Positions 2,942 through 19,540 of a DNA stretch of 39,360 nucleotides are shown in pieces. Under the pieces are notes generated by a model. That model saw nothing but the letters and a program-made list of their open reading frames with translations, did not search any database and had not been told where the DNA came from. Source of the stretch: a virus; IMG/VR virus record IMGVR_UViG_3300045454_000121, positions 1 to 39,360 of that record. The stretch is one strand, 5' to 3'. Both the position numbers and the translations under genes were made by a program. Position 1 is the stretch's first letter. Each line of letters opens with the position of its first letter.

Positions 2942-3069
2942 CAGCGCCGCCCTCCCGCCGCGCCGAACAGCGCGACGATGATGAAGGGGACTGCGACGAT
3001 CGCGGCGAGGCCGACGAACGCGATCTGGGCTATCCGCTGCCAGCGGCGGGTAGTGACGGGCGCGGCCAT
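2941..3069 (-). CDS. Tiny single-span membrane protein (42 aa)
   Basis: A 42-codon gene: a basic N-terminus (MAAPVTTRRWQR) followed by one long hydrophobic stretch (about residues 13-36, IAQIAFVGLAAIVAVPFIIV) and a short GGRR tail. This is a classic small inner-membrane protein with a positive N-terminal flank. Its ATG abuts the stop codon of the GapR gene, and its stop is shared with the next start (TGATG), which supports it as real despite its size. No family recognised. Superinfection exclusion or membrane modulation are common jobs for such phage peptides, but nothing here proves that. Confidence 0.55.
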   Translation of the reverse strand: MAAPVTTRRWQRIAQIAFVGLAAIVAVPFIIVALFGAAGGRR

Positions 3070-3434
3070 CACAACATCCCCAACGCGACGCGATAGGTTT
3101 CGATGATCGCTTCCTCTTCGTCGAGGACGTGCTTTTCCTTCTGGCGCAGGGTCAGGATCGCGCGCAGGCCCTTGGCGTCGTAGCCGCGCGCCTTGGCCTC
3201 GCCGAAGACGTCGCGTTCATCCTCGGTAATCGCCCGCTTCTCTTCGCGGATTCGCTCGATCCGCTCGATCAGGAGCCGCAGCTCCTCGGCCGCGCTGTCG
3301 CCGTTGGTCTTGATCGGGTCCGGCACGACGGGCTTCTTGCGGCCCCGCTTGGGAGGCGCTGCCGTGATCGGGGCGGGGACGTGCCGCATGGTGCCGTCCG
3401 CGCCGCGTTGAATGCGCATCGTCATCGCGTTCAT
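3069..3434 (-). CDS. GapR-family (DUF2312) DNA-binding protein
   Basis: A 121-residue protein. Its first 45 residues are basic and Pro/Lys-rich. Residues about 48-121 match the GapR/DUF2312 domain: AAEELRLLIERIERIREEK, then the EDERDVFGEAKARGYDAKGLRAIL block and an acidic EEEAIIETYRVALGML end. In Caulobacter, GapR is a nucleoid-associated protein that binds overtwisted DNA ahead of forks and stimulates type II topoisomerases. A phage copy beside the primase-helicase gene suggests help in relieving supercoiling during phage replication, or competition with the host protein. The start ATG overlaps the previous stop (ATGA); two further in-frame ATGs lie at residues 4 and 6. Family assignment is firm, phage role is inference. 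Confidence 0.88.
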   Translation of the reverse strand: MNAMTMRIQRGADGTMRHVPAPITAAPPKRGRKKPVVPDPIKTNGDSAAEELRLLIERIERIREEKRAITEDERDVFGEAKARGYDAKGLRAILTLRQKEKHVLDEEEAIIETYRVALGML

Positions 3435-3565
3435 GGGATCATTGCTCCAGCGAGGTAAAAGGCCGCGACCAGCGCGACGGCGAGCCAGCGGCGGCCAGTG
3501 CGTGCCCGCGCCGTCCGCGCGGTGCAGTCGCCGCACGAGCAGCTCTGAAAGGTGGGGGCGATCAC
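3431..3565 (-). CDS. Tiny Cys-rich membrane peptide (44 aa, GTG start)
   Basis: A 44-residue reading frame beginning at a GTG that overlaps the stop of the preceding gene (GTGA) and ending in an ATGA overlap onto GapR. The N-terminal half has a CSCGDC cluster. The C-terminal half is a hydrophobic span (RRWLAVALVAAFYLAGAMIP). The perfect overlaps at both ends are the main argument that it is a gene; a longer frame upstream has unlikely composition. Function unknown. A metal-binding, membrane-tethered peptide is all that can be described. Confidence 0.5.
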   Translation of the reverse strand: MIAPTFQSCSCGDCTARTARARTGRRWLAVALVAAFYLAGAMIP

Positions 3566-4023
3566 AGGCGGTCTCCGCCGCTGCAGCGGGTGCAAAGGTC
3601 CGCGCTCGCCCAGGCACAGGCACCGTCGGCGCCACGGTCGCAGGCATCCCACTGGCTGCAGCCGCAGCCGCGGCAGACCGCGGGGTGGCGATCGGCGGGT
3701 TCGTGGGCGAGCTGGTAGTAGACGTTGGGGTCGAGCGGGAACGCGGCGGCGAGCACATCGATCGTTGTGACGTGGCGGGCGAGGATCCCGGGGGTTTCGA
3801 GCTGGCGGACGAGCGCGCGCGCCTCGGCAAGGCGCTCCGATCGCGGCATGAAGCGCGGCGGCGTCGTGTTCTCAACGATCAGCGCTGCCGCATCCTCGAC
3901 CGACAGCCGTGCCGCGCGGCGGCGCAGTGCGAGATATGCCTGAGGCGTAAGCGGCGGGAGGGCGGTCCTTGTCTGTGGGACAGGGCGCGGAACGGCGCGC
4001 CCGAAACTCGGGGTATGCAGCAT
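3562..4023 (-). CDS. Small protein with C-terminal zinc-binding cysteine cluster
   Basis: A 153-residue protein. The first 110 residues are helical (LRRRAARLSVEDAAALIVE, RSERLAEARALVRQLE). The C-terminal 40 residues hold a dense cysteine cluster, CRGCGCSQWDACDRG followed by CAWASADLCTRC, likely two zinc sites. This Cys module is common in phage and prophage proteins, where CxxCGC-x(n)-C-W-x-x-x-x-x-C marks a small unnamed zinc domain. It sits directly downstream of the primase gene (TGATG junction) and is coupled to the next gene by GTGA. It may assist replication, but no enzymatic motif is visible. Confidence 0.75.
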   Translation of the reverse strand: MLHTPSFGRAVPRPVPQTRTALPPLTPQAYLALRRRAARLSVEDAAALIVENTTPPRFMPRSERLAEARALVRQLETPGILARHVTTIDVLAAAFPLDPNVYYQLAHEPADRHPAVCRGCGCSQWDACDRGADGACAWASADLCTRCSGGDRL

Positions 4024-6743
4024 CAGCTGGTTCCTTTCTTCACGGTGTCAGGGTCGGGGTTGCGAAACACCCAGCAGTCGACGGTCTTGCCGACGCGGGA
4101 ATTGACGGCCTTCACTTCGACGAAGCGGCGGGCCTTCGAGGTCTTGAGCAGGCGGCGCAGCTCCTGGTTGGTGCAGGGCATGCGCAGGCCATTGGCGGAA
4201 CAGCGGCTCTCGAACTGGACCAGGCTGATCGCGAAGACGTCCGACGTTCGGGCATGGTTGATCGGGTTCTCGGGCGCGAGATGCATCGCGTCCTGCGCGT
4301 TGAAATGGTCGAAGCGCTCCCAGAACAGCGTGACGTGCGGGTGATCCTGCTCGGTCACGCGGTGCCGCTCGACCAGCATGTCGAGGATCAGATTGTGCGC
4401 GTCGGCGACGTCGTGGTCGGCGAGGTTGGTGACGACGAGCCGCATCGCGTCGAGCATCGCCGCCAGCTGCGCGTGGTTCTTGGCGAAGCGGTAGTCGCCG
4501 CAGCCGGGATGCTTGAGCATCCGGGCCTCGTGGTGGGCGAAGGCCTCGGCATAGCGGGCAAGGATTGCCTCTTCCCGGCGCGCGACGTGGATCGGGAAGC
4601 CTGACAGATCCTTGATGTCGGCGGTCTTGAGTGCCTCGCCAGCGGCCTTGCCCTGCGGCGAAAAGCGGCCCTTGTCGAAGTGCAGGCCCATGATGCGCTC
4701 GGTCACCGCCGGCGAGCCTTCGACTGTCGCGTTCTGGGCGATGACGATCGCGCCACGAAAGGGCGGCTCGAATGTTTCCATGCCGCCATTGGCGATGGCG
4801 CGGGTGCGCACGGCGCGACCGTTATAGGCGGTCTTCAGCTCGTCCCATTCGAAGCGCTTCGCGTGCGGAGTATCCTGACCACGGTCGCCCTCGATCAGCA
4901 CGACGGGGAGGTTGCCGACCTGCCCCAGCGTGCGCGAGATGCCCGCATTCGTGCCCTTGGTCGGATCGAACCCTTCGTAGGATGCGCGGCCCAGCAGCTT
5001 CCACAGGAATTCCAGCAGCGTGGTTTTGCCGCTGCCCGGCGGGCCGGTCATTTCGAGGAAGCCGAGGCTTTCCTGTTTCGCGCGGATCTGTTCGGCGAAG
5101 AGTGCCAGCACCCAGAAGGACAGCACCACTAGCCCCTTGGGGCCGTAGGCGGTGATCAGCGGGCGGGTCCAATCGAGGTTGAGCTTCTCGGGATCATAGG
5201 CGAGGCGCAGCATCCGCTCCGACGTGCGCAGCTTCACCGATCGCTTGCCGAGGACGAAATAATCCTCGTCATTGGCCTCGTAGACGCGGCCCTTGTGAAC
5301 CGCGACGTCGCCGAAGATCCAGGCCTCGTGTTCCTTCGAATAGCCGGTGAACTGGATCGCCTCGACCACCTGAATATTCGCCCATTGGCGCTGCATCAGG
5401 CGGACGATCTGAAACTGATTGCCGGTCCATAGTGCGCCGGGAGCGACCGATGCGAGCCGCTTCATGAAGTCGCCGGATCCCGCGCATGCTGCGCCGGAGA
5501 AGGTCGCCTTCACGCTGGCCCGATCGGACGGGAAATCGACGCGGAGGAAGTACGCGCCCTCCTCAAGGTTCGGGTCGCGCTGGTAGTAGAGGGTGCGGAA
5601 GGTGCAGTTTGCGACCTCCTCGATCTCGACCGCGCGCTCGGCCGCGCGCTGCCATTGCTGGGTGAACGGGAGCGCCTTGAAATCCTCGAACTCGGGCTCG
5701 TCGCTTTCCAGCATCGCGGTCAGCTCGGCCTGGATGCGGTCGATCGAGAAGTTCGCCCAGAGCTGACGGCCGCCGAAGGTGATCGGGAAGTTCGCGAATT
5801 TCTCGCGCTCGTAGATCAGCAGCGCCTTGGCCGTGGCAGTCGGCGCGATCGTCACCTCGCCATTCCAGCGATAGGTGGCCAGATCGTCGGGCTTCAGCTT
5901 GTCGCGCTGGCCGAGGTCGTTCCAGTCGAGCTTTTCGCCCTCACCATCGGGGCGCACCTGGGCAGCACCCGAGCGCCAGCCTTCTGCCGTGGCGCGCTCG
6001 TGAAATTTGCGGGTGAAGTGGACGCCGGCGCGTCCGACGTCGAACGCCCAGATCAGGCGCGGCCCGGCGAGGTTGAGCTCGCCACAGACCCGGCGCAGAT
6101 CCGCAAGGAAGTGTTCGGGATAGACGTTGCAGGTCAGGGTCGAGACGGCGCGGACCTTGCCCTTCTGGACCAGGTCGATCGTGTCGAAGATGCCCTCGGC
6201 CAACCAGAGTTCATCTGCCCTGGCGATGTCCTCAAGCGTGACGCCGGGGTACATCCAGCAATGGCCGCGATAGCTGGAGCCGTAGGAGAAGGTCGCCTTC
6301 TTCTTCCCGAACCGGCCCGGCTGATCGATCAGGCGCTGCCAATGCCCGCCGCCGGGGATGGGGAAGCGCACCGCCGCCGAGACGATTCCCAGCTCGGGGT
6401 CACGATACCATTCCTGCGAATAGCAGCCGCGCAGGTCCATGAGGTTGAAGCCGCGCGCGGCCGAGAGATAGGCGTCTGCGGCGGCATGGGGATCCTGCGC
6501 CGTCTGCTTGTGGCGCTTTGACCAGTTGTCGAAGATGTCGGGGTAGAGTTCCTTGACGTGCTTCTCGACGCCGCAGCGGTTCACGCGGCCGCATTTTACG
6601 ACCCAGGGCGCATCGGCGCGGGCATAGGCTTCGCGCTTGCCGCAGGCGTCGCACTTGCCCTCCTGCAGCCAAGCGCCGTTGGCCTTGAACTTGTAATCGT
6701 TCTGCAGGCGCTTCAGCACTTCTGTGAGGAGATCGTCGCGCAT
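4023..6743 (-). CDS. Phage primase-helicase (zinc finger, Toprim-like, DUF927-type ATPase)
   Basis: A 906-residue replication protein. Residues 31-57 form a C-x2-C-x16-C-x5-C zinc finger like those of primases. A Toprim-like segment follows (about 170-270; LAEGIFDTID, then LIWAFDVG). The C-terminal half is an ATPase: Walker A GPPGSGKTTLLEF at about 566-578 and a Walker B-like VVLIEGD near 613, in the DUF927/superfamily III-like helicase style. It would unwind phage DNA and lay primers. It replaces the rolling-circle initiator gpA of classical P2; no HUH relaxase motif was found in the window. The last 35 residues (RRFVEVKAVNS...DCWVF) are echoed by a 57-aa frame at 9544-9717. It opens after a 95-base gap downstream of Ogr and leads the chain of small genes. 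Confidence 0.9.
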   Translation of the reverse strand: MRDDLLTEVLKRLQNDYKFKANGAWLQEGKCDACGKREAYARADAPWVVKCGRVNRCGVEKHVKELYPDIFDNWSKRHKQTAQDPHAAADAYLSAARGFNLMDLRGCYSQEWYRDPELGIVSAAVRFPIPGGGHWQRLIDQPGRFGKKKATFSYGSSYRGHCWMYPGVTLEDIARADELWLAEGIFDTIDLVQKGKVRAVSTLTCNVYPEHFLADLRRVCGELNLAGPRLIWAFDVGRAGVHFTRKFHERATAEGWRSGAAQVRPDGEGEKLDWNDLGQRDKLKPDDLATYRWNGEVTIAPTATAKALLIYEREKFANFPITFGGRQLWANFSIDRIQAELTAMLESDEPEFEDFKALPFTQQWQRAAERAVEIEEVANCTFRTLYYQRDPNLEEGAYFLRVDFPSDRASVKATFSGAACAGSGDFMKRLASVAPGALWTGNQFQIVRLMQRQWANIQVVEAIQFTGYSKEHEAWIFGDVAVHKGRVYEANDEDYFVLGKRSVKLRTSERMLRLAYDPEKLNLDWTRPLITAYGPKGLVVLSFWVLALFAEQIRAKQESLGFLEMTGPPGSGKTTLLEFLWKLLGRASYEGFDPTKGTNAGISRTLGQVGNLPVVLIEGDRGQDTPHAKRFEWDELKTAYNGRAVRTRAIANGGMETFEPPFRGAIVIAQNATVEGSPAVTERIMGLHFDKGRFSPQGKAAGEALKTADIKDLSGFPIHVARREEAILARYAEAFAHHEARMLKHPGCGDYRFAKNHAQLAAMLDAMRLVVTNLADHDVADAHNLILDMLVERHRVTEQDHPHVTLFWERFDHFNAQDAMHLAPENPINHARTSDVFAISLVQFESRCSANGLRMPCTNQELRRLLKTSKARRFVEVKAVNSRVGKTVDCWVFRNPDPDTVKKGTS

Positions 6744-6838: not shown

Positions 6839-7153
6839 TCAGCCGCTCATGGGAGCGACCTCGGTCGCCGCTGGCGGGTGCTCATCATTGGCAGGAGGGG
6901 GCGTGTCGTCATTGGCCGGCACTGAGGCCCACTTGCCCATTGGCAAGTGGATGTCGGGGTTCGGGCATGCGCTGGGCCGCACGGTGCGGATCACGCTGAG
7001 CTGGGCGACGAAGTAATGCCCGCACTCGATGTTGTCGCAGACGAGGCGCAGTTCGCGCACGATCGGCGTCACCTGGACGCTGTCGCGCACAATCGATCGA
7101 TCGCCGCAATGGGGGCAGTGGATCCCCGGAAGACGTGGTTTCTTGGCAGTCAT
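6839..7153 (-). CDS. ogr: Ogr/Delta-type zinc-finger activator of late transcription
   Basis: A 104-residue protein of the Ogr/Delta family. The zinc-finger core has CPHCG near residues 13-17, then SVQVTPIVRELRLVC, CDNIECGHYFVAQLSVIRTV, and a trailing S-A-C-P. In P2, Ogr binds dyads near -55 of late promoters and recruits RNA polymerase through its alpha subunit. The family fold fills residues 1-70; the tail is Pro/Asn-rich and low in complexity. The gene lies in the early operon, coupled by ATGA to the 164-aa gene upstream. In P2 it sits after gene D in the late region. A conserved dyad found upstream of all four late operons here (17416, 25000, 31734, 34843) is its likely target. The family is secure; its binding to those sites is inference. 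Confidence 0.9.
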   Translation of the reverse strand: MTAKKPRLPGIHCPHCGDRSIVRDSVQVTPIVRELRLVCDNIECGHYFVAQLSVIRTVRPSACPNPDIHLPMGKWASVPANDDTPPPANDEHPPAATEVAPMSG

Positions 7154-7644
7154 TGGGTTCCCCCCACAGTTTCCCCGCTCGACCCTGTGCCGAAGGGATG
7201 GAAAGACGAGAGACGCCGACCAACGACCGCCATCGCAGATTGGGCTTCTTCGAGTTCATGTTCGGCGCGGTGGACCTCGCGAGGCCCGGCACCGGGATGG
7301 GTGACGGCGAGGACAGCCGCTAGGGCTTCGCCGTTTTCCTTGGCCGCGTTGGCGACGGCGGCGGTGAGGGCAAGCCGGTTGGCCATGCGCTCACCGATGC
7401 CGCGATCGAGCAGCTGGAGATAGGTTTCGGAGATCGGCGCGGTGTCGCCGCCCGCCTCGATATAGGCGAGGTCGAGGGCGACGCCCTGGGCGACCGTCGG
7501 ATGCGCGTTCGACTGCGGGTGCGACCATTTGCGCACGAGCCGCTCGCTGCGGTCGACGATCTGCGCCATGCGCGGGTAATCGATCTTGCCCGCGATCGTG
7601 CTGATCGCCTTCGAAAAGGTGAGAGGTTCGCGGGCGAGGGTCAC
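7150..7644 (-). CDS. Phage regulatory protein in the CII position
   Basis: A 164-residue protein beginning at a GTG that overlaps the stop of the Cro-like gene (GTGA) and ending in an ATGA overlap onto ogr. The N-terminal part (FSKAISTIAGKIDYPRMAQIVDRSERLVRKWSHPQSN) reads as a helix-turn-helix. Helical, Ala-rich sequence follows. By position it matches CII/Cox-like regulators of P2- and 186-type phages, in which the second early gene controls establishment or replication. A longer frame starting at 7683 would overlap the upstream gene by 40 bases; the GTG is preferred because of the coupling. No firm family call. Confidence 0.75.
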   Translation of the reverse strand: MTLAREPLTFSKAISTIAGKIDYPRMAQIVDRSERLVRKWSHPQSNAHPTVAQGVALDLAYIEAGGDTAPISETYLQLLDRGIGERMANRLALTAAVANAAKENGEALAAVLAVTHPGAGPREVHRAEHELEEAQSAMAVVGRRLSSFHPFGTGSSGETVGGTQ

Positions 7645-7985
7645 TGCGCTCGCTCCGGGTGCAAAACGGCGCTCCGATCGCACGCGACGATCGGAGCGCC
7701 GGAAGTTACGACGCCCTTATGCGAGAGGCAGGGGGCCGAGGCGTCGTGGGAGAACAGGTCGGGTTGCTCTTCGAAGTCGGCGGGTACGCCGTTCGGAAAG
7801 ATGATGAGCATGGCGGTGACCGGAAGCCGCAGACGGCGCGCAACACGCAAGACGTGCGGCTGCTTGGTCGCGGGAACTCGGCCGTGGTTCTTCCAGTCCT
7901 GGACCGTGGAAGCGCGCTCGCCCAGCTCGCGGGCCATTGGCCGGATGCCATCGAACACATCGAACAAGGTTGTTCCGCTGCTCAT
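7641..7985 (-). CDS. Cro/Cox-like helix-turn-helix repressor, first early gene
   Basis: A 114-residue DNA-binding protein. Residues about 5-58 form a Cro-like HTH: DVFDGIRPMARELGERASTVQDWKNHGRVPATKQPHVLRVARRL. The GRVPATKQPHVL segment is the hallmark of the YdaS/Cro-like regulators that face a CI gene. It is the first gene of the leftward early operon and is divergent from the CI-like gene, with 85 bases between the two start codons. It likely represses the lysogeny promoter and may act in excision. The C-terminal 45 residues are of unknown function. The start ATG is the only one before the domain. Confidence 0.85.
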   Translation of the reverse strand: MSSGTTLFDVFDGIRPMARELGERASTVQDWKNHGRVPATKQPHVLRVARRLRLPVTAMLIIFPNGVPADFEEQPDLFSHDASAPCLSHKGVVTSGAPIVACDRSAVLHPERAQ

Positions 7986-7990
7986 GAATC

Positions 7991-8050
7991 AGCGTGTACG
8001 GATTATCAGAACGCTTTGCAACATCAAAATCCGTACAGACGCTGTACGCC
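7991..8050. promoter_or_regulatory. Lysis/lysogeny switch region with TGTACG inverted repeats
   Basis: The spacer between the divergent Cro-like and CI-like genes. A 10-bp perfect inverted repeat is present: tgtacggatt at 7995-8004 and its complement at 8028-8037. A second, tighter palindrome, cgtacag-acg-ctgtacg, spans 8032-8048. So TGTACG half-sites occur three times, the middle one shared by both palindromes. These are likely the operators of the two repressors. On the minus strand TGATAAT (8008-8002) is a candidate -10 for the early promoter and lies between the arms; no convincing -35 was found. Confidence 0.7.
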
Positions 8051-8070
8051 TTTTCCGCAAGTGTAATCGT

Positions 8071-8610
8071 ATGGAAAGTGCGGCACTGAGCCTAAAGGCA
8101 TTGCGCGAGCGCGCGCGCCCGAAACTGTCGGTTCGCGGCATGGCGGCGGCGCTGGGAATGTCGCCATCGAAATACACGCACTACGAAAACCCTAAGACGT
8201 TCAAGAAGTCGTACCTGCCAATGGACATGGTGCGCGAACTCGTGCCGATCCTCGGCGCGCACAACATCGCTGAGGCGGACGTACTTGCGCTCGGGGGCGT
8301 CGAGGCTGGTGCCGGGGAAGTGGTGCCGATCCCGCCGCTTCCGCCCATCCAGTTCGTGACGATGCAGGTGGCGCTGCCTAGTGAAGCTGCGCTCGCGCGG
8401 ATGTTTGAGGGGCTGTTGCGACCCGTCGATCATCAAAAGCAGAGCGCGGCCGAACTCGCTCAAATTCTCGCTCGGCGGCTGCCAACCGGTCTTGCGCAGC
8501 TTCGAGATCTGCTGCCCGCACCTTTGACGGGCGCAGCGCCCGAACGCGATGCAGATCCTCAAGCTCCCGCCACAGATCATCCCGAGTCGCGGCGAGCACC
8601 GAACACATGA
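8071..8610 (+). CDS. CI-like prophage repressor (HTH, no peptidase domain)
   Basis: A 179-residue protein whose N-terminal domain (about 5-70) is an HTH of the XRE kind: LKALRERARPKLSVRGMAAALGMSPSKYTHYENPKTFKKSYLPMDMVRELVPIL. A linker with PIPPLPP and a helical C-terminal region follow, which may dimerise the protein. No S24/LexA serine-lysine peptidase motif is visible, so RecA-driven self-cleavage is not expected. That resembles P2 C more than lambda CI. The start is the ATG at 8071, just before the domain. The frame stays open upstream, but that part crosses the switch region. It probably maintains lysogeny by binding the TGTACG palindromes next to its start. A minus-strand frame (8378-8671) overlaps its 3' half. 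Confidence 0.82.
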   Translation: MESAALSLKALRERARPKLSVRGMAAALGMSPSKYTHYENPKTFKKSYLPMDMVRELVPILGAHNIAEADVLALGGVEAGAGEVVPIPPLPPIQFVTMQVALPSEAALARMFEGLLRPVDHQKQSAAELAQILARRLPTGLAQLRDLLPAPLTGAAPERDADPQAPATDHPESRRAPNT

Positions 8611-8671
8611 CGTCGCACCGCGCACATGCCTGTTCGCAGCCCGGGGTCAGGCGGAAAATGGGTCTGCTCAT
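8378..8671 (-). CDS. Possible small protein antisense to the repressor 3' end
   Basis: A 97-residue frame with a Cys cluster near its start (GCEQACARCDVMC) followed by a charged helical, coiled-coil-like stretch (RDDLWRELEDLHR, DLEAAQDRLAAAEREFERVR). Its composition looks more like a protein than a shadow. It is antisense to the last 233 bases of the repressor gene, which makes one of the two 3' ends doubtful. Alternative start at 8716 adds 15 residues. No family recognised. Kept as a low-confidence call. Confidence 0.3.
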   Translation of the reverse strand: MSRPIFRLTPGCEQACARCDVMCSVLAATRDDLWRELEDLHRVRALRPSKVRAADLEAAQDRLAAAEREFERVRPRSAFDDRRVATAPQTSARAQLH

Positions 8672-8743
8672 CGGGTCGCCGCTCGATTCGTTGTTCTCTT
8701 TGTGTTCTCGTTGCACGGCGATCGGCTTGTAGGAAATCGCAAA

Positions 8744-8759
8744 AATCGCCTCGGCGATT
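8744..8759. promoter_or_regulatory. Perfect 7-bp palindrome upstream of the WYL/TerB-like gene
   Basis: aatcgcc-tc-ggcgatt forms a perfect inverted repeat 20 bases before the start of the 253-aa gene. A further direct copy of aaatcgc lies at 8734-8740. It sits in the leader between a TTGCAC hexamer (8711-8716) and the strong Shine-Dalgarno run (ggggga, around 8768-8773). It may be an operator for the downstream gene. A short hairpin in the mRNA is the alternative. Confidence 0.4.
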
Positions 8760-8778
8760 GTGAATAAGGGGGAGAGGC

Positions 8779-9540
8779 ATGGAATCGGCGCACAGTGTAA
8801 ATCAGGCGGATCGGCTCCGCGCCGTGCTGCAAGGGCGGCGCGTCACTCCTGCGATGCCGCCGCGCCGGCGCGCCCGTGTTGTGAATTGCGATGCCGAAGC
8901 CGGAGCGCGCAATGGCCGCGATCACAGCGCGTCGTGGGCTGGGTTTTTCAAATATACAAATGGCAAAGGTGAGGTCAGCGAGCGCCGAATCATCTGCATC
9001 GCGCTGGAGGGCGTGGGAGAGGTCGAGCGTTTCCGTGGGCGATGCGTCGAAACCGATGCCTTCAAATGCTTCCGGGTGGATCGGGTGTCCGAGATGATGG
9101 ATTTGAGCACCGGCGAGTTTCTCGATCCAGCGTCACATTTCGAGGAACTACGGCGTACCGGGGCGCTCGCCATGCGAGATAAGGCGCTCGAGGACATTGC
9201 CCGCGTTCTCGTGTTTCTCGCGCGATGCGACGGAGAGCACCATCCCCTTGAAGCGGCCGCCTTGGAGGATGCCTTCGGTCGCTACGCGTTTCGGTTCGGG
9301 GGCTACGACCATGAAATTGAACAGGCGCTGCGACGCTGCCAAGGCCTCGCTCCTGATGATGAAGACGTCATTGGCGCCGTCGATCGGTTCGGCCAGCTCG
9401 GTAATGGCGCGGCGATTGCTCGGTTCGTGCTTGATCAAGCCGGAAAAGTCATCGACGCGGATGGGCGGCACGCCGAAGAGGAAATTCGCTGGGCAATCGA
9501 GATCGGAGATGCGCTTAAAGCTGTCGCGACGATACGCTAG
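8779..9540 (+). CDS. WYL-like/TerB-like accessory protein (253 aa)
   Basis: A 253-residue protein of two parts. Residues about 60-115 resemble a WYL-type beta domain (ERRIICIALEGVGEVERFRGRCVETDAFKCFRVDRVSEMMDLSTGE). Residues about 135-250 are helical, with two TerB-like acidic signatures, RCDGEHHPLEAAALEDAF and DADGRHAEEEIRWAIEI. TerB-like domains bind metal and occur in stress and conflict systems; WYL domains sense ligands, often in defence regulators. The start ATG follows a strong Shine-Dalgarno sequence, with a palindrome 20 bases upstream. It lies outside the early and late operons, between the repressor and gene D, so it is probably lysogenic-conversion cargo. Domain calls come from reading motifs only and are moderate. 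Confidence 0.75.
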   Translation: MESAHSVNQADRLRAVLQGRRVTPAMPPRRRARVVNCDAEAGARNGRDHSASWAGFFKYTNGKGEVSERRIICIALEGVGEVERFRGRCVETDAFKCFRVDRVSEMMDLSTGEFLDPASHFEELRRTGALAMRDKALEDIARVLVFLARCDGEHHPLEAAALEDAFGRYAFRFGGYDHEIEQALRRCQGLAPDDEDVIGAVDRFGQLGNGAAIARFVLDQAGKVIDADGRHAEEEIRWAIEIGDALKAVATIR

Positions 9541-9543
9541 GCG

Positions 9544-9717
9544 TCAGTTCATCAGCTCAAAAACCCAGCAATTCATCGTCTTGCCTTTGATCGAGTTGAG
9601 CGGATTGTTCGCGACGTAGCGCGGGCTTTGCGCCAGGCGCAGCGCCACCATCATCTCGCGATCGATGCGCAGGTCGACCTTGCCGCTGATGTGCTGCGAC
9701 CCTGTCGGCACGCTCAT
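9544..9717 (-). CDS. 57-aa protein resembling the primase C-terminus (possible remnant)
   Basis: A small frame beginning MSVPTGSQHISGKVDLRIDR. Residues 32-53 align without gaps to residues 872-893 of the prophage's own primase-helicase: 11 of 22 are identical, including the NS, GKT and CWVF blocks. No clear Shine-Dalgarno sequence precedes the ATG. It ends three bases from the stop of the convergent 253-aa gene. It is either a short stand-alone protein sharing that C-terminal domain or a remnant of another phage's primase gene. The alignment is read directly from the two translations. Confidence 0.5.
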   Translation of the reverse strand: MSVPTGSQHISGKVDLRIDREMMVALRLAQSPRYVANNPLNSIKGKTMNCWVFELMN

Positions 9718-9746
9718 TTGCGAACGGGTCGCGAAAGCAGTATAAT
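9718..9746 (+). promoter_or_regulatory. Strong sigma70-type promoter
   Basis: TTGCGA at 9718-9723 and a perfect TATAAT at 9741-9746, separated by 17 bases. It is the best match to a housekeeping promoter that I saw in the window. It would start transcription near 9753, about 26 bases before the ATG of the 56-aa microprotein. It carries no obvious operator, so constitutive expression in the lysogen is likely. Confidence 0.75.
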
Positions 9747-9778
9747 CTGAGCGGGCGGGGAATCGACGGAGATCGACA

Positions 9779-9949
9779 ATGCCACAGCAAGATCCGGAAT
9801 ATTACCAGGTGCGCGCGCAGACCGAACGTGAGATGGCTGAGCGCGCAACGTGTGACACGGCGCGGGCTGCGCATATCGCGCTCGCCGAAAAATATGAGCG
9901 CGCAGCGCAGGGTAAACGGATCGAACTGAGTATTGTCGAGCGCGGGTGA
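9779..9949 (+). CDS. Microprotein A (56 aa), paralogue of the next gene
   Basis: A 56-residue helical, charged protein beginning MPQQDPEYYQVRAQ. It has a GGAG ribosome-binding site at 9768-9771 and lies behind a near-consensus promoter. Its central 43 residues match the 60-aa protein at 10100-10282 at 24 positions, including EREMAE, AR..H, YE.AA and IE. Soluble, likely one helical hairpin. No known function. Small proteins of this look occur widely in sphingomonad genomes outside phages, which I recall only in general terms. The promoter and the position outside the lytic operons mark it as cargo. Confidence 0.7.
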   Translation: MPQQDPEYYQVRAQTEREMAERATCDTARAAHIALAEKYERAAQGKRIELSIVERG

Positions 9950-10099
9950 GTTCGATGAGCGTACCGGGGGGCGCTCGCGAATTCACCCACTGCATGCCAA
10001 TTGATGATTGAAATATGGCCTCGCGGCATACAGCGATAAGCGACCGTTGCACTGTTCGTTTCGAATTCACAACCGCGCCGCCTGCCGGGGGGAAGTCGG

Positions 10100-10282
10100 A
10101 TGATCATCGGGGCCGAATATTTTCAGAGGCGCGCGCTCCAGGAGCGAGAGATGGCTGAAAAGGCATCTAGTCCAAAGGCGCGCGATCTTCACCTTGAACT
10201 GGCAGCGCGGTATGAGATTGCTGCAGCAGGCAGGCCAATTGAGATAGGCGCAGCCACGTCCGTTCGATCGGGTCTGCGTTAA
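10100..10282 (+). CDS. Microprotein B (60 aa), paralogue of the previous gene
   Basis: A 60-residue protein beginning MIIGAEYFQRRALQEREMAEKA, with a strong GGGGGGAA ribosome-binding site at 10087-10094. It is homologous to microprotein A over 43 residues (24 identical), so the pair arose by duplication or by acquisition from related sources. The 150-base spacer between them has no gene that I can support; a TTGCAC hexamer at 10047-10052 is a weak promoter hint. Its stop TAA overlaps the stop of the convergent gene D in a shared TTAA (10279-10282). Function unknown. Confidence 0.7.
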   Translation: MIIGAEYFQRRALQEREMAEKASSPKARDLHLELAARYEIAAAGRPIEIGAATSVRSGLR

Positions 10283-11316
10283 GCCGTCCGCTCCAGTTTC
10301 AACGACGTCGAGAATCCTCGATCGCCTAGGCTGTGTGCGACCTCACTGGTCAGCCACCCCGTGCCGTCGATCTCGGCCTTGAAGCCCTGGACGGTGACCT
10401 TTTGCTCCGGGGCCAGATCCGCGCGGCCGAGCGCAAGTGTGTAGTCGAAGGTCGCCGGCGCGCGCCTGGCGCGCTTTTGCGAGGCCTCTGCGGCGGCGCG
10501 GGCGTCGGCTTCGCTGGCATAGGTGCGGGACAGCTTGCGCGCGCCCTTCTCTTCGCCGACCGTCACGTCCTGTTTCTTCCCCGCCTTGCGATCGTGCCAG
10601 GACGCGGTGACGCCAGTTGCGTCCTCGCGCTTGGCGATACGGTAGCTGTGCCGGTCACCGTCGCGGCGGCGCAAGGTTGCCTCTGGCAGTGCTTTGCCGG
10701 TCGGGGTTTCGCCCGAGCCGACCGGCGCGAAAATCAGCGACCCCGCTTTGATCGTCGCGACCGCATCATGTTCGCGCCCCAGACGGCGCAGGAATGCCAT
10801 ATCGCTTTCGCGGCTCTGTACCACGGTCTTGAGCTGGATCGACGCCAGAGCGGGCGCGCAGCGCGTCTGCAGGGCATTGCGGGCCGCGATTTCGGCCACG
10901 ATCGCACCGAGCGTGGTGTCGTGCCAGCTCTGCTCGCGGCGCTTCTTGAGGTCGCTGGTGAAGTCGGCCGAGCGGGCGGTGATGCGCACCTGATCGGGCG
11001 GGCCGCGATGCTCGACCTCATCGACCTTGAAGCTGCCCTTGTCGATCAGGCCGGGCACGACGTCGCGGCCGCGCAGCCAACCGAGCTGCAGGCGCAGCAC
11101 CGCGCCGGGTTTGGGCAGTTCGAGCAAGCCGTCGCTGTCGTCGAGAGTCAGTTCGAGCTGGTCTGCCTCATCCCCGCGTTTCTCGGTGAGGGTGAGCGCG
11201 ATCAGGCGTGGGCGGACCTTGGCGGTGATGTCGAGCAGCTCGGCCGCCGGGTCGAAAATCGCGACGCGCAGATCCTGCCCGGCCATGGTGAGGCGGAAGT
11301 CGGGAACGTTGCTCAC
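10279..11316 (-). CDS. D: Late control/tail protein gpD
   Basis: A 345-residue homologue of P2 gpD, the tail-hub protein next to the spike (the gp27-like part of the baseplate). Visible hallmarks are the opening PDFRLTMAGQDLR, the DSDGLLELPKPGAVLRLQLGW block near residues 60-80, RESDMAFLRRLGREHDA near 170, and a late VTVQGFKAEIDGTGWLTSEVAHSLGDRGFSTSL block. It begins at a GTG three bases after the gpU stop and is the last gene of the V-D operon. Length fits the family. In P2, D is followed by ogr; here microprotein B converges on it. Confidence 0.93.
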   Translation of the reverse strand: MSNVPDFRLTMAGQDLRVAIFDPAAELLDITAKVRPRLIALTLTEKRGDEADQLELTLDDSDGLLELPKPGAVLRLQLGWLRGRDVVPGLIDKGSFKVDEVEHRGPPDQVRITARSADFTSDLKKRREQSWHDTTLGAIVAEIAARNALQTRCAPALASIQLKTVVQSRESDMAFLRRLGREHDAVATIKAGSLIFAPVGSGETPTGKALPEATLRRRDGDRHSYRIAKREDATGVTASWHDRKAGKKQDVTVGEEKGARKLSRTYASEADARAAAEASQKRARRAPATFDYTLALGRADLAPEQKVTVQGFKAEIDGTGWLTSEVAHSLGDRGFSTSLKLERTA

Positions 11317-11319
11317 CGA

Positions 11320-11703
11320 TCAGCCCTCATCGACGCGGAGCAGGTCGATCGCGAAGTCGATCCGGCGCGGCGTGCCGTCGTCGAGCAGGTATTTCTGGCG
11401 CTCATCAATCGCGGTGATGACGAATTCGCCGAACACGCGCCCCGCGCCATCGACCAGCGGCCATGCATCGCCCGTGCTGGCCATGCCGCGCAGATCGTCG
11501 AGTGACAGCGCGCCCTGCGACAATTCGGAAAAGGCGGCCCCGGATACCGAGATTGAGTCCTCGCCGGGGCCGACGAACTGAAGCGCGTCGCGGGTGCCGA
11601 TGCGGGCCGAACGCGCGTGCCGCCAGTCGCAGCGGCGCTGAAGCTCATCATGGGCGAGGGTTGGGACGTGAAAGGCAAACATGCCGAGCGACATCAGGAT
11701 CAC
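11320..11703 (-). CDS. U: Tail terminator-type protein gpU
   Basis: A 127-residue gpU homologue, which caps or completes the phage tail tube. The typical start, (V)ILMSLGMFAFHVPTLAHDELQRRCDWRH, and the GQ-rich middle fit the family. I chose the GTG at 11703 because a GGGAGG Shine-Dalgarno sequence lies seven bases before it and the gpT stop is just upstream. An ATG at 11718 would overlap gpT by 13 bases and remove that spacing. Next gene downstream is D. Confidence 0.9.
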   Translation of the reverse strand: MILMSLGMFAFHVPTLAHDELQRRCDWRHARSARIGTRDALQFVGPGEDSISVSGAAFSELSQGALSLDDLRGMASTGDAWPLVDGAGRVFGEFVITAIDERQKYLLDDGTPRRIDFAIDLLRVDEG

Positions 11704-11705
11704 GA

Positions 11706-14231
11706 TCAATCCTCCCAATCAGGCGCGTCGGCGAACGACCCGCCGCCGCCGGGCTTGCGGCGATGATCTTCGAGCTGGCGGCGGACTTCCTCGGCGATCT
11801 CTTTCGCGGACTGGCCCGGCGCGGGATAAATGTTGATCGTGACGGGCGCGGCAGTGGCGCGCGCGCCCGCACCGCCGGCGCCCGCCGCTCCTGAGGTGGA
11901 AGACGCAGCCCGCGCGCCGGATCCCACCGGGTCGCCGGGGGCCGGGGTGGCGGCGATGGCGGGCGCGGCGATGCCGACCGCCATTGCCGCGCCGATATCT
12001 TTCGACAGGCGATCGAGGCGGCGGATTGGCAGCTGCGATTCGGAGGCGATGCCGCGATCGAGCCCCTCCATCATGTAGCCGCCGAACCCCATGAAGACGC
12101 GGGACGGGGACTGGATGCCGAGTTTATGCTTGAACCATTTTGCGGCGGACGATGCCGCGTTGACGATCGTCGATTTGAGCGCGCCGAGCATGTTCGTGAC
12201 GCCGCGGATCAACCCTTGGATAAGGTTGCGGCCCGCCTCCATCATCTGCCCTGGCAAAGGGCCGCGCAGGAACGCCAGCACGGCGGAGAAGGCGCGGATG
12301 AACATACCGACCGGCGTGAAGTTCATGATGAAGCGGCCGATCGCGGTGAGGCCGGTGCTCACCGTGGTCTTGATGCCTGCCCACAGGTCAGAGAAGAAAC
12401 CGGTGATCGCTCCCCATTTCGAATAGATCAGATACGCGCCGCCCGCGATCAGCGCGATGGCCGCGACCACCGCCAGCACCACCCCGATCAGGGGCAGCAT
12501 GCCGATATTCAGGAACGCGGCGGCGGCACCCAGCGCGTAGAATGGCGCGACCAGGCCAGCGACAATGATGGCGCCGCCGCCCAGGACGATGAACAGCCCG
12601 GCGAGGATGGCGGCAGTGAGCGCCAGCCCCTTGGCAAATCCCGGGTTGGCGCGCGCCCAGCTGGCAAAGGCCTTGGCATAGCCGCCGACCTTTTTCGCCA
12701 GCTGGGTCGCGGCGGGGAGCAGCAGGCCGCCCATCGTGATCGACAGGTTCTGCATCTCGACATTGAACTGCCGCGATTCCTCGGCTGCGTCTTTCATGCG
12801 CTCGGCGAAGTCAGCGTCGGTGGTACCGCCGGCAGCGCCAGCCTCGGCGCGGATGCGGCGATATTGCTCAAGGTTCTCGATCAGGGGGCGGAGTGCGCCC
12901 TGGACCTGGGCATCCTCGAAGAGATAGCCGAGCTTCGACATGTCGCCGCCCAGGGTCTTACGGGTCAGCTCGGCAATCGCCTCGAGCGGTGTCTTCCCCT
13001 CAGCATAAGCCTTCTGGAGCGCAGCGGGGAGGTCGACGCCGAAGTTCTTCTTGAACGCGCGCACGGTGGCGGGCGAGTTAATCTTCTGGAGCAGGTTGGC
13101 GACGTTGGTCGCCGCGGCGTCCGACGATCCTGCGCCCTTACGCGCGATCTGCAGCGCTGCGGACAGATCCGCGACGGCGGCGGTGCCGTGCTGGCCCAGC
13201 GCCTGGCTGGCGGCGGTGAGCGCAGGGAAATGGCTCGCCATGTCCTTGATCTCGAACGCGCCGCGCTTTCCTGCGGCCGCCATGATGTCGATCACCTTGC
13301 TCGTCTGGGCAACCGGCACCTTGAGATTATCGTTGGCGGCGAAGGCGGCGGCGGACAGGTCGCCGATTTCCGCTTTGTACGCGGTGGCCGCGCGGCCGAT
13401 CGGCTGCATCATCGCCAGCGCCTGTCGCGGATCGAGGCCGAAGCCCGACAGGGTGTCGATGCCGGCGCGGATCGCCTCGGGCAGCTGGTTCGCCTTCGAT
13501 GCGATATCGAGCACCGTGTCGCCCATCTGGCGCGCGGCCTCGCGCGACAGGTCCGCTTTCTGAGCGATGTCGGTCATCGCCGATTCGTGTTCCATCGCGT
13601 TGCCGGTCGCGCCGGTGATCGGCTGCAGCATGGTCTGCCCGGTCTGCATCGCGGAGAAGCCGCCGGCGGCAAGGCCGGTGGCCATGTTCATGCCCTTGCC
13701 GAACTTCTCCTGCGCTGCGCCAAGCCGCTGCGCGCGATCGGCGGTAGCGCGCAGGCGGCGTTCCTGCTCGGCCAGTTCCTCGTTGGTGCGGGCGATGTCG
13801 CCGCGCAGGCGGCGTTCATGGCTGGAAAGGTTGCCCGTCGCGACGCCCGCGGCGCCGAGCCGATCGCGCAGCTGCTGCAGCCGGGCGGATTGCTGCGTGT
13901 GTTCGTTCTTGAGCGCGGCCGCGTCCCGCTTCGCGCGGGCGAATTCGGCGGCGAGCTTCTTGGTCGGCGCGTCGGCGGCTGACATCTGGCGCGCCAGCGC
14001 CGCGACCCGCGCCTGCGCCTCGCCCATCTGTGCCTCGGTCGAGCGCAGCCCGGCCTTCAGCTCGCGAAAGCCATTGATGTCGGCCTGCGCGCGATCGAGA
14101 TCCCGGAGGCGGTCGCGGGTCACCTTCAGCTCGCGCGCGGCCTTGGCCGAACCGCCGGCGATATCGCGCAAGGGGCGGATGACGCGGTCACCGGCCTCAA
14201 GCAACATGCGGATGCGTAGATTGCGGTCCAT
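11706..14231 (-). CDS. T: Tail tape measure protein gpT
   Basis: An 841-residue tape measure protein that sets tail length and probably helps DNA pass the membrane. Residues 1-190 are coiled-coil (long Ala/Arg/Glu heptads, for example RDRLRDLDRAQADINGF). Residues about 200-480 hold the TP901-type conserved core (MEHESAMTDIAQKADLSREAARQMGDTV, GFGLDPRQALAMMQPIGRAATAYK). Residues about 540-630 are strongly hydrophobic with several possible membrane spans. The tail is Ala/Pro/Gly-rich. The start ATG (MDRNLRIRM) follows gpE' by nine bases. Length is in the usual range for P2-like phages. Confidence 0.93.
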   Translation of the reverse strand: MDRNLRIRMLLEAGDRVIRPLRDIAGGSAKAARELKVTRDRLRDLDRAQADINGFRELKAGLRSTEAQMGEAQARVAALARQMSAADAPTKKLAAEFARAKRDAAALKNEHTQQSARLQQLRDRLGAAGVATGNLSSHERRLRGDIARTNEELAEQERRLRATADRAQRLGAAQEKFGKGMNMATGLAAGGFSAMQTGQTMLQPITGATGNAMEHESAMTDIAQKADLSREAARQMGDTVLDIASKANQLPEAIRAGIDTLSGFGLDPRQALAMMQPIGRAATAYKAEIGDLSAAAFAANDNLKVPVAQTSKVIDIMAAAGKRGAFEIKDMASHFPALTAASQALGQHGTAAVADLSAALQIARKGAGSSDAAATNVANLLQKINSPATVRAFKKNFGVDLPAALQKAYAEGKTPLEAIAELTRKTLGGDMSKLGYLFEDAQVQGALRPLIENLEQYRRIRAEAGAAGGTTDADFAERMKDAAEESRQFNVEMQNLSITMGGLLLPAATQLAKKVGGYAKAFASWARANPGFAKGLALTAAILAGLFIVLGGGAIIVAGLVAPFYALGAAAAFLNIGMLPLIGVVLAVVAAIALIAGGAYLIYSKWGAITGFFSDLWAGIKTTVSTGLTAIGRFIMNFTPVGMFIRAFSAVLAFLRGPLPGQMMEAGRNLIQGLIRGVTNMLGALKSTIVNAASSAAKWFKHKLGIQSPSRVFMGFGGYMMEGLDRGIASESQLPIRRLDRLSKDIGAAMAVGIAAPAIAATPAPGDPVGSGARAASSTSGAAGAGGAGARATAAPVTINIYPAPGQSAKEIAEEVRRQLEDHRRKPGGGGSFADAPDWED

Positions 14232-17588: not shown

Positions 17589-18473
17589 ATGCCTAGAGGC
17601 TATCGGTGCATCGTGATTGCGGCTCTCGGATGCCTAGTCCTAGCTTCCGCCCCCGCCCCAAATCACAGCGCTCAAGCCAATCAATCCAACGCCACCGAGG
17701 ACGTAAATCGCTCCCTCGCGACGATTGCGGATGCGCAAACCAAGCAAGCCGAAACTGGCGAATATCAGACCCCATGCCCCGACGGTGAGTACAACAACAA
17801 GTCCGATCTTTGCGCCCAGTGGTATGCCGCACGCGCCGCTAGAGACGCGGCAGATTGGGCGTACTGGGCCGTGTTCTGGACGGCGATATCCCTTGCCGTC
17901 AGTGCTGTCGGATTGCTCGCTTTGATCATCACGATCCGGCAAGGTAGGGAGGCTAACGAGATCGCCCGACAAACTGCTAGACTTCAACTTAGAGCGTATG
18001 TCGGAATTAAGATCAGCCTTGTGGATGTAGAAACCGAGAAGCGGTCTCGCGCCGTCGTTTCTCATGACATCGAATTTCAGATTGAGAATTTCGGCTCGAC
18101 CCCAGCGACGATCCACAGAATCGATTTTAATATGAGCAAAACGGCCAGAAAGCCCAGAGAACTTGACGTTTCTGCGCCGCAATTCGCGCCGCGTGAGATA
18201 GTCATTCGCCCCCGGGTGCTGGCTCCAGGAGACCACTTCGTTCATCGGATGCGCGTCGGTTTGCTCCGAGCCGATCTGACAGAAATCAGCGCACTCACGC
18301 GCGAGATATCGGTCGGCATGCGCCTTTGTTACGTCGATATTTACGGCGAGGCCCACGAAATCGTCATTCGCTACGCTAGCAGCGGCCGGTCTTACGATAG
18401 ACGCGAGTTCACGAGATGCTACGAGGAGGCATATTCCTACCCCGAAATGCCGGCAGAGTGGCTTGAGCCGTGA
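17589..18473 (+). CDS. Membrane-anchored cargo protein of unknown function (294 aa)
   Basis: A 294-residue protein on the strand opposite to the late genes. Residues 1-30 are a signal-peptide-like segment (CIVIAALGCLVLASAPAPNHSAQA). A DGEYNNKSDLCAQWYAARAARDAADWAYW region leads into one transmembrane span (about 94-115, AVFWTAISLAVSAVGLLALIITI). Residues 117-294 form a beta-rich domain beginning REANEIARQTARLQLRAYVGI. This layout (TM, then IRQGREANEIARQTARLQLRAYV) is widespread among unnamed proteobacterial proteins; exact function is unknown. It sits between the V promoter and the end of the fibre genes, so it is a moron-type insertion. The 220 bases before it carry the V dyad and no other gene that I can see. 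Confidence 0.8.
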   Translation: MPRGYRCIVIAALGCLVLASAPAPNHSAQANQSNATEDVNRSLATIADAQTKQAETGEYQTPCPDGEYNNKSDLCAQWYAARAARDAADWAYWAVFWTAISLAVSAVGLLALIITIRQGREANEIARQTARLQLRAYVGIKISLVDVETEKRSRAVVSHDIEFQIENFGSTPATIHRIDFNMSKTARKPRELDVSAPQFAPREIVIRPRVLAPGDHFVHRMRVGLLRADLTEISALTREISVGMRLCYVDIYGEAHEIVIRYASSGRSYDRREFTRCYEEAYSYPEMPAEWLEP

Positions 18474-18494
18474 ACTAAACATGACGGCGAACGC

Positions 18495-18508
18495 CATCAC
18501 GGGTGATG
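18495..18508. terminator. Short hairpin between convergent genes
   Basis: catcac-gg-gtgatg is a perfect inverted repeat, 22 bases after the stop of the 294-aa membrane protein and before the 3' end of the convergent 314-aa gene. No T-tract follows, so intrinsic termination is uncertain. The remainder of the 122-base gap shows no gene. Confidence 0.35.
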
Positions 18509-18595
18509 ACACTCGTAATCGCCTTGGTGCATTTGCTACATAATCCCGCTCATTTGAATGCGACGCGTGCTGGGACGTACGGGTCGCCGGGTAGG

Positions 18596-19540
18596 TCAGG
18601 GCATCCCGGCGACATCGTACGCGCCAGGATCGTTGAAATAGCGCCCCCCAGCGGCATGCGCCTTGGTCCACTCCGCCAGCTCGCGCTCGAGCATCTGCTG
18701 AGGTGACAGCGCCTTTGCCGGGTCGGCGTTGGTCAGCAGCGTCCCGAAGTGAAGCCGTTCGAACACGAAGCTCTGCGACTTGTTGTCGTGGATCGCATTG
18801 CCCGAGACGTTGCCGGCCGACACGAACAGCTGTCCCACCGCCTGCAGGGCCTGGGCGACGAAGCGGGCGGTGACGAAGTGCAGCGCCGGCTCGCCGACCG
18901 GCTGCACTCCCGGGGTGTCATAGCGGAACAGCCCCTCATCATTGCCGGTGTTGTTGTAGCCGGTGCTGCCTGCGGGCGACATGCCCATGATCTTGCGATA
19001 GGTCGACCCGGCAACGTTTAGGCCGCGATACATGAAGGGCTGGGCGGCATCGTCGCTGCCGGTGTCGACGCCGGCGCGCAGGGTGCGCGTCCAGAGCGCG
19101 GCAAAGAAGATGTCCTTTGTCGGGACCGCCGCATAGGTTTCGACCCGGCTGTTGGCATAGGCGACGATGTTGGCGGGCGCATTGATCTTGGCCCAGACGT
19201 TGGTGTTGGCGTTCACCCGGCTGACCGTGAACTGAAGGGCGCCGGCGGCGGTGCGATCGGTGCGCGATCGCGTAGCCTGCCCCCAGGCGGTGCCCTGGGT
19301 CAGCGTGGCGCGCAGCGCCGCCGCGTCATTCGCGGTCAGGCCGAGCAGGCGCGCCGCCGGGCGGAAGGCGTGATTGCGGAAGGCGTAGCCCGCGGTGGGG
19401 ACTGCGCCGGGGGCAAGATCGGACAGGCTGTGTCCGGGTTCGATCAGCAGCAGCGACCCGTCATGAATCGCGGGATCGTCATGGTAAGCGGGAAAGCTGG
19501 TGCCGAGCGGCGCGCCGCCGATGTCGATGCCAAGGGTCAC
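18596..19540 (-). CDS. Uncharacterised fibre-associated protein (314 aa)
   Basis: A 314-residue protein beginning MTLGIDIGGAPLGTSFPAYHDDPAIHDGSLLLIEPGHSL. It is rich in Ala, Thr and Asn, with segments such as NTNVWAKINAPANIVAYANSRVETYAAVP and a C-terminal LERELAEWTKAHAAGGRYFNDPGAYDVAGMP. I do not recognise a domain. It is coupled by a four-base overlap to the SGNH-type fibre protein and is the last gene of the J-H block. Location at the end of the fibre genes suggests a receptor-binding, tip or surface-modifying protein. There is no signal peptide or membrane segment. Confidence 0.8.
   Translation of the reverse strand: MTLGIDIGGAPLGTSFPAYHDDPAIHDGSLLLIEPGHSLSDLAPGAVPTAGYAFRNHAFRPAARLLGLTANDAAALRATLTQGTAWGQATRSRTDRTAAGALQFTVSRVNANTNVWAKINAPANIVAYANSRVETYAAVPTKDIFFAALWTRTLRAGVDTGSDDAAQPFMYRGLNVAGSTYRKIMGMSPAGSTGYNNTGNDEGLFRYDTPGVQPVGEPALHFVTARFVAQALQAVGQLFVSAGNVSGNAIHDNKSQSFVFERLHFGTLLTNADPAKALSPQQMLERELAEWTKAHAAGGRYFNDPGAYDVAGMP

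Follow-up and report, generated by a model that had tools for sequence, protein, structure and literature searches.

In this phage, the interval that separates tail gene D from the immunity genes raises the question of what two small, related proteins could contribute to the virus that carries them. The window, i.e. the whole stretch of DNA that was analysed, is a P2-like phage record of 39,360 bases with a left-end integrase, tail gene D, sheath, baseplate, capsid and scaffold genes. The phage host is very probably a sphingomonad, because the nearest relatives of gene D come from viral contigs (90% identity), followed by genomes of Sphingomonas and other sphingomonads (64% and below). The explanation that we favour, with a probability of roughly 0.4, is that the two genes are a host-derived lysogenic-conversion cargo (moron) acting on host signalling.

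Both open reading frames, p56 (56 aa, pI 5.75; 9779-9949, + strand) and p60 (60 aa, pI 9.5; 10100-10282, + strand), begin with ATG and lie exactly where the initial annotation had placed them, and p60 shares its last 4 nt with the end of the convergent tail gene D. They are paralogues, with 24 of 45 aligned residues identical and 31 of 45 similar in BLASTP (E 6e-14), which upholds the relationship noted before and corrects its count of 24 in 43. Over 44 aligned codons, 32, 28 and 16 positions are identical at the first, second and third codon position, respectively, and 12 of the 24 shared residues are encoded by different codons. The two are real protein-coding genes, long diverged; the divergence must be old because the protein is constrained while the third codon positions are near-saturated. 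A recent tandem duplication was rejected, given the 16/44 identical third positions and a best host member that is nearly as close, the two proteins being each other's best match among those compared (24/44 residues, versus 21/36 for that host member). Pfam, PHROGs and NCBIfam returned nothing useful for either protein. The same was true of viral contigs searched with p60, p56 and the alignment of the pair, and of genome contigs searched with p60, while the phage records gave no match to p60 and a single one, at E 3, to p56.

In regard to its position, the pair occupies variable cargo between gene D (10279-11316, − strand; PF05954, E 8e-18; phrog_52, E 6e-132) and the immunity genes, where the other conserved edge is formed by a 112-aa gene (8378-8716, − strand) with 54-92% identity in the eight closest relatives having it (L004-L010, L080). 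Gene D is up to 90% identical in relatives, yet other genes fill their interval, and the gene content between D and the 112-aa gene differs in all six close relatives examined (L004-L009). With tblastn, p56 and p60 had no match in 149 D-bearing loci (80 viral, the best 80 of 440, and 69 from genomes), many of them fragmentary and perhaps not reaching across the site. The GC3 of the pair is 0.62 and 0.53, compared with 0.75-0.87 in eight late-operon ORFs outside the low-GC islands, and low values also occur in some other non-structural genes (0.61 in the 112-aa gene, 0.49 in an 816-aa gene). The same interval holds, at 8779-9540 (+ strand), a protein with weak matches to WYL and TerB domains, whose relatives (37% identity) are located between D and the immunity genes in two other phages, L066 and L125.

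A small turnover locus between conserved genes, with lower GC and a promoter-like site, resembles the moron cargo of P2-like phages (PMC9122126). In P2-like phages, anti-phage genes abound in small turnover loci (PMC9122126), which would speak for superinfection exclusion or anti-phage defence by the small-protein pair. The documented hotspot of E. coli P2, rich in such genes, sits elsewhere, between gpA and gpQ beside cos (PMC9122126), while p56 and p60 lie between D and immunity and match no defence model (no PADLOC family for either at E ≤ 0.01). Furthermore, the protein family to which they belong occurs widely and in many copies on host chromosomes, where the neighbours found are signalling genes. 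We consider defence improbable, and the earlier suggestion of an action on other phages gained no support.

The pair is preceded by a sigma-70-type promoter-like site, TTGCGA-N17-TATAAT (9718-9746, + strand), a match to the consensus at 10 of 12 positions and nothing beyond that. It had been described as near-perfect, which is apt for the −10 element alone (a perfect TATAAT), because the −35 element matches at 4 of 6 positions. Three sites of at least 10/12 are present in the window (9718 +, 33373 + and 31891 −; shuffle mean 0.63), the last two in or beside an AT-rich island at 32-34 kb. The supposed rarity holds locally, where such a site is unlikely by chance: positions 7001-14000 contain one against a mean of 0.03 in 60 shuffles, and shuffling the 238 nt before p56 3000 times produced one in 0.3% of cases. 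Across the whole window it is unremarkable, because 47% of 60 whole-window shuffles contain at least one. Directly before this site lies a 57-aa ORF (9544-9717, − strand), the start codon of which abuts the −35 element and which matches only the C-terminal end of phrog_20645 (residues 111-153 of 156); it may be a recombination remnant, because similar sequence occurs in relatives at a distance of kilobases from D.

Both genes have ribosome-binding sites, GGAG for p56 (9768-9771, + strand, 7 nt before the ATG; duplex energy −6.6 kcal/mol) and GGGGGGAAG for p60 (10087-10095, + strand; −9.4 kcal/mol). The epithet "strong" given to them earlier suits the second better, as 3% of random 20-mers from the window are as strong, while the corresponding 12% makes a weaker case for p56. 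A scan of positions 7000-14000 listed no + strand terminator between the two genes or just after them, so a single p56-p60 transcript is possible. Expression in the lysogen is plausible, and a paralogous pair with a promoter-like site and low GC3, in variable cargo by the immunity region, is typical of lysogen-expressed accessory genes. Control of the pair through an FNR box was rejected, since the 19 loose boxes in the window include none between 2822 and 10828. The promoter recognised by EcfG is GGAAC-N16-18-CGTT, and no such promoter was seen upstream of p56 and p60 on reading the sequence. EcfG promoter sites for comparison are tabulated in PMC6599016.

The origin of the pair became apparent from sphingomonad genomes. 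Weak tblastn matches (E 0.02-0.1) were found on four sphingomonad plasmids, two of them adjoining Crp/Fnr genes; the other two fell in a single response-regulator protein, at its N-terminus. A five-row alignment found matches in 15 of 27 named genomes picked because they carry related phages (E ≤ 0.01), and a 28-row profile, A4, in at least 104 of 298 Sphingomonadaceae genomes (E ≤ 1e-3), with at least 16 copies in one of them. The profile matches p56 at E 3.7e-19, p56 itself being one of its rows. A profile search across the class found members in at least 4 of 385 genomes, two of which are known sphingomonads. The link to host proteins is independent of iterated searching, because a two-row profile built from p56 and p60 alone already finds members in at least 53 of 397 Sphingomonadaceae genomes at E ≤ 1e-5. 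This family link is well supported, and it is highly probable that the phage pair belongs to the family and came from a host. The family appears to consist of hairpins of about 45 residues, multi-copy and largely restricted to sphingomonads, on plasmids as well as on chromosomes. One plasmid-borne member, the hypothetical protein WP_163956595 of Sphingomonas insulae (NZ_CP048421), has the same signature and core length as the phage pair, to which the Sphingomonadaceae members, sometimes paired themselves, are related by profile search.

A literature search found no published description of this hairpin family, and Pfam, NCBIfam and PHROGs hold no model of it. Compared with these three libraries, the 28 trimmed A4 members gave family matches for single members only (best E 0.008 and 0.03) or none, and the best match of the A4 profile among PDB sequences had E 0.1. 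We therefore see the phage pair as a minimal handle on a family that is unmodelled in the libraries searched, carries a sharp signature and is present in about a third of the sampled Sphingomonadaceae genomes.

That signature reads Y7-x3-R11-x3-E15-x3-A19...H31-x3-A35-x2-Y38 in p60 numbering, and all seven residues are kept in both p56 and p60. Among 104 distinct cores, which were chosen with a profile and therefore favour residues conserved in it, R is present in 103, H in 103, the two A in 98 and 97, the two Y in 95 and 93, and E in 83. The AlphaFold2 model of p60, built from an input alignment of two sequences, is a two-helix hairpin (helices 5-21 and 25-42) with a mean pLDDT of 93-95 over residues 11-40, as a prediction for p60 alone. 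Judging by the spacing, the signature residues of each helix would share one face. With the predicted hairpin, every Foldseek match had E > 1, and a fold assignment was rejected on that ground. Among these non-significant matches was the two-helix hairpin of EncB, an encapsulated ferritin-like protein (PDB 7s5c, 7s5k; TM-score by query 0.65, E ≥ 1.7). The metal motif of EncB is ExxH, whereas RxxH stands here, 58 of the 104 cores having R at this position.

A predicted hairpin with signature residues at i/i+4 spacings, as might be expected of a packing face, in a family whose host members are frequently paired, could also indicate a purely structural role, in which the hairpins form four-helix bundles among themselves or together with host paralogues and take no part in signalling. 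Near-invariant R, H and E would seem to exceed what a packing core needs, and the association with Crp/Fnr genes and the fusion to a receiver domain, both described below, also argue against such a role, which we regard as about as improbable as defence.

The genomic company of the host members points to signalling. A Crp/Fnr gene lies within 1.5 kb of 8 of 129 members, versus 0.55 expected (P 1e-7), in a test that covered 16 genomes picked for many members, with 129 family places and 96 Crp rows, 13 weaker listed rows above the cut-off being omitted together with every row that was below it or unlisted; seven distinct Crp genes are involved, and 4 of the 8 are divergent. An HWE histidine kinase lies within 1.5 kb of 3 of 129 members, versus 0.37 expected (P 0.006). 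Receiver genes, counted in four genomes, are weakly associated, with 3 of 39 members within 1 kb versus 0.96 expected (P 0.07) and 6 versus 2.39 expected within 2.5 kb (P 0.035, a fusion included). All these context figures come from many-copy genomes and were set against a uniform null with rounded genome sizes. Crp/Fnr genes also adjoin the two plasmid members mentioned above, and in WP_017980829, from plasmids of Sphingomonas sp. NIC1 and S. naphthae, the first ~44 residues are this hairpin, fused to a receiver domain, while the phage proteins are free-standing. Pfam families could be assigned to 135 of 176 ORFs around 54 loci (79 families, the 25 commonest listed). The family is thus associated with signalling genes, Crp/Fnr above all, though most members lie apart, with no Crp/Fnr gene within 1.5 kb of 121 of the 129 and no HWE kinase within that distance of 126.

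Two other candidates from the host loci were rejected. The EcfG promoter motif is not clearly enriched at host members, in its strict form (1 of 56 members, taken from 56 loci, versus 6 of 1334 background tiles) or its loose form (2/56 versus 15/1334), and membership in the EcfG regulon was dismissed. Likewise, no further domain fusions were accepted from 21 matches in 20 long-frame regions, where the C-terminal tails measure 1-63 residues and what precedes the hairpin was taken, on visual inspection alone, for frame extensions. On a Polymorphobacter plasmid (L002:2995-4113, + strand), an unannotated member has a divergent Crp/Fnr gene on one side and, on the other, a gene for a sigma-70 family sigma factor that points the same way.

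Host members also keep company with each other. Pairs within 2 kb number 11 versus 0.54 expected, 8 of them on the same strand, a count that includes three pairs from one three-gene cluster (G258) and takes an apparently duplicated contig stretch (G273) as is. The paired arrangement of p56 and p60 is itself a trait seen in part of the host family, most members of which stand singly. This bears on a toxin-antitoxin pair, which two small adjacent genes with products of opposite charge (pI 5.75 and 9.5) could bring to mind; p56 and p60, however, share one family and probably one fold, host members mostly occur without a partner, and no toxin or antitoxin family was matched in Pfam, PHROGs, NCBIfam or PADLOC, so that we give this explanation very little credence.

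It is also conceivable that the pair are passengers that arrived with host or plasmid DNA and have no selected role in the phage, since family members also travel on plasmids and the pair is absent from every closely related phage found. Near-saturated synonymous sites in genes whose protein is conserved, with the full signature in both, run counter to this, although some of the divergence may be older than the phage. A second P2-like contig, L055 (IMGVR_UViG_3300046520_000141), holds a lone 58-aa member (1585-1761, + strand; E 7.5e-9) just upstream of the baseplate-spike gene, a cargo place that differs from the p56/p60 interval and likewise argues against mere passengers. A scan of the viral collection with this member returned only the L055 contig again. 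Counting the window, 150 D-bearing phage sequences were examined, and 2 of them have a family member. On balance, passenger genes seem unlikely, if less so than defence or a structural role.

The preferred explanation, host-derived cargo acting on host signalling, combines these observations. Since p56 and p60 belong to a large host family, their likeliest targets are the host pathways in which that family acts, and this membership suggests that the virus borrowed a regulatory part from its host. The prophage would express p56 and p60 in the lysogen, where they could serve as small helical adaptors docking on Crp/Fnr-type regulators, and perhaps on HWE-kinase/receiver systems. In doing so they could supplement the host's own small proteins or compete with them, which would retune the stress or redox response of the lysogen. 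An adaptor action on signal-transduction proteins is a tentative proposal, somewhat less probable than the explanation as a whole. The initial annotation had likewise suggested an accessory pair directed at host physiology, an idea that is partly borne out, and made more specific, by the cargo position, the membership in a host family and the retained signature; expression, partner and effect are what we infer from them. Host members occupy host loci, often beside regulators, whereas the phage pair is cargo between D and immunity genes, with no Crp/Fnr or kinase gene adjacent and no FNR-like box within it. A broader scheme, which we find rather doubtful, would have sphingomonads possess a lineage-specific network of tiny helical adaptors, paralogous and partly interchangeable, wired to Crp/Fnr regulators and HWE-kinase phosphorelays, from which temperate P2-like phages captured adaptors repeatedly, the divergent pair serving to rewire the lysogen by mimicking its signalling proteins. 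Provided that the association with Crp/Fnr and HWE-kinase signalling is true, phages tap the signalling network of these bacteria via proteins of 56-60 residues.

Several other features of the window were observed. The low-GC island at 32230-34680 (− strand; GC 0.46-0.48 at 32-34 kb) encodes the 816-aa protein mentioned above, with weak AAA matches, a match to phrog_14719 of unknown function (E 1e-73) and none in PADLOC. Near the baseplate-spike gene, a 343-aa ORF with a GC of 0.57 (17640-18671, − strand) has no PHROG or PADLOC match, and this region is probably a second cargo site. At 3069-3875 (− strand), a 268-aa protein carries a C-terminal GapR-like DNA-binding domain (PF10073, E 8e-25). 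Finally, ARAGORN called a tRNA-Asp (GTC) at 5868-5940 (+ strand), on the strand opposite to a 906-aa ORF with a Toprim match, and this call is possibly a false positive.
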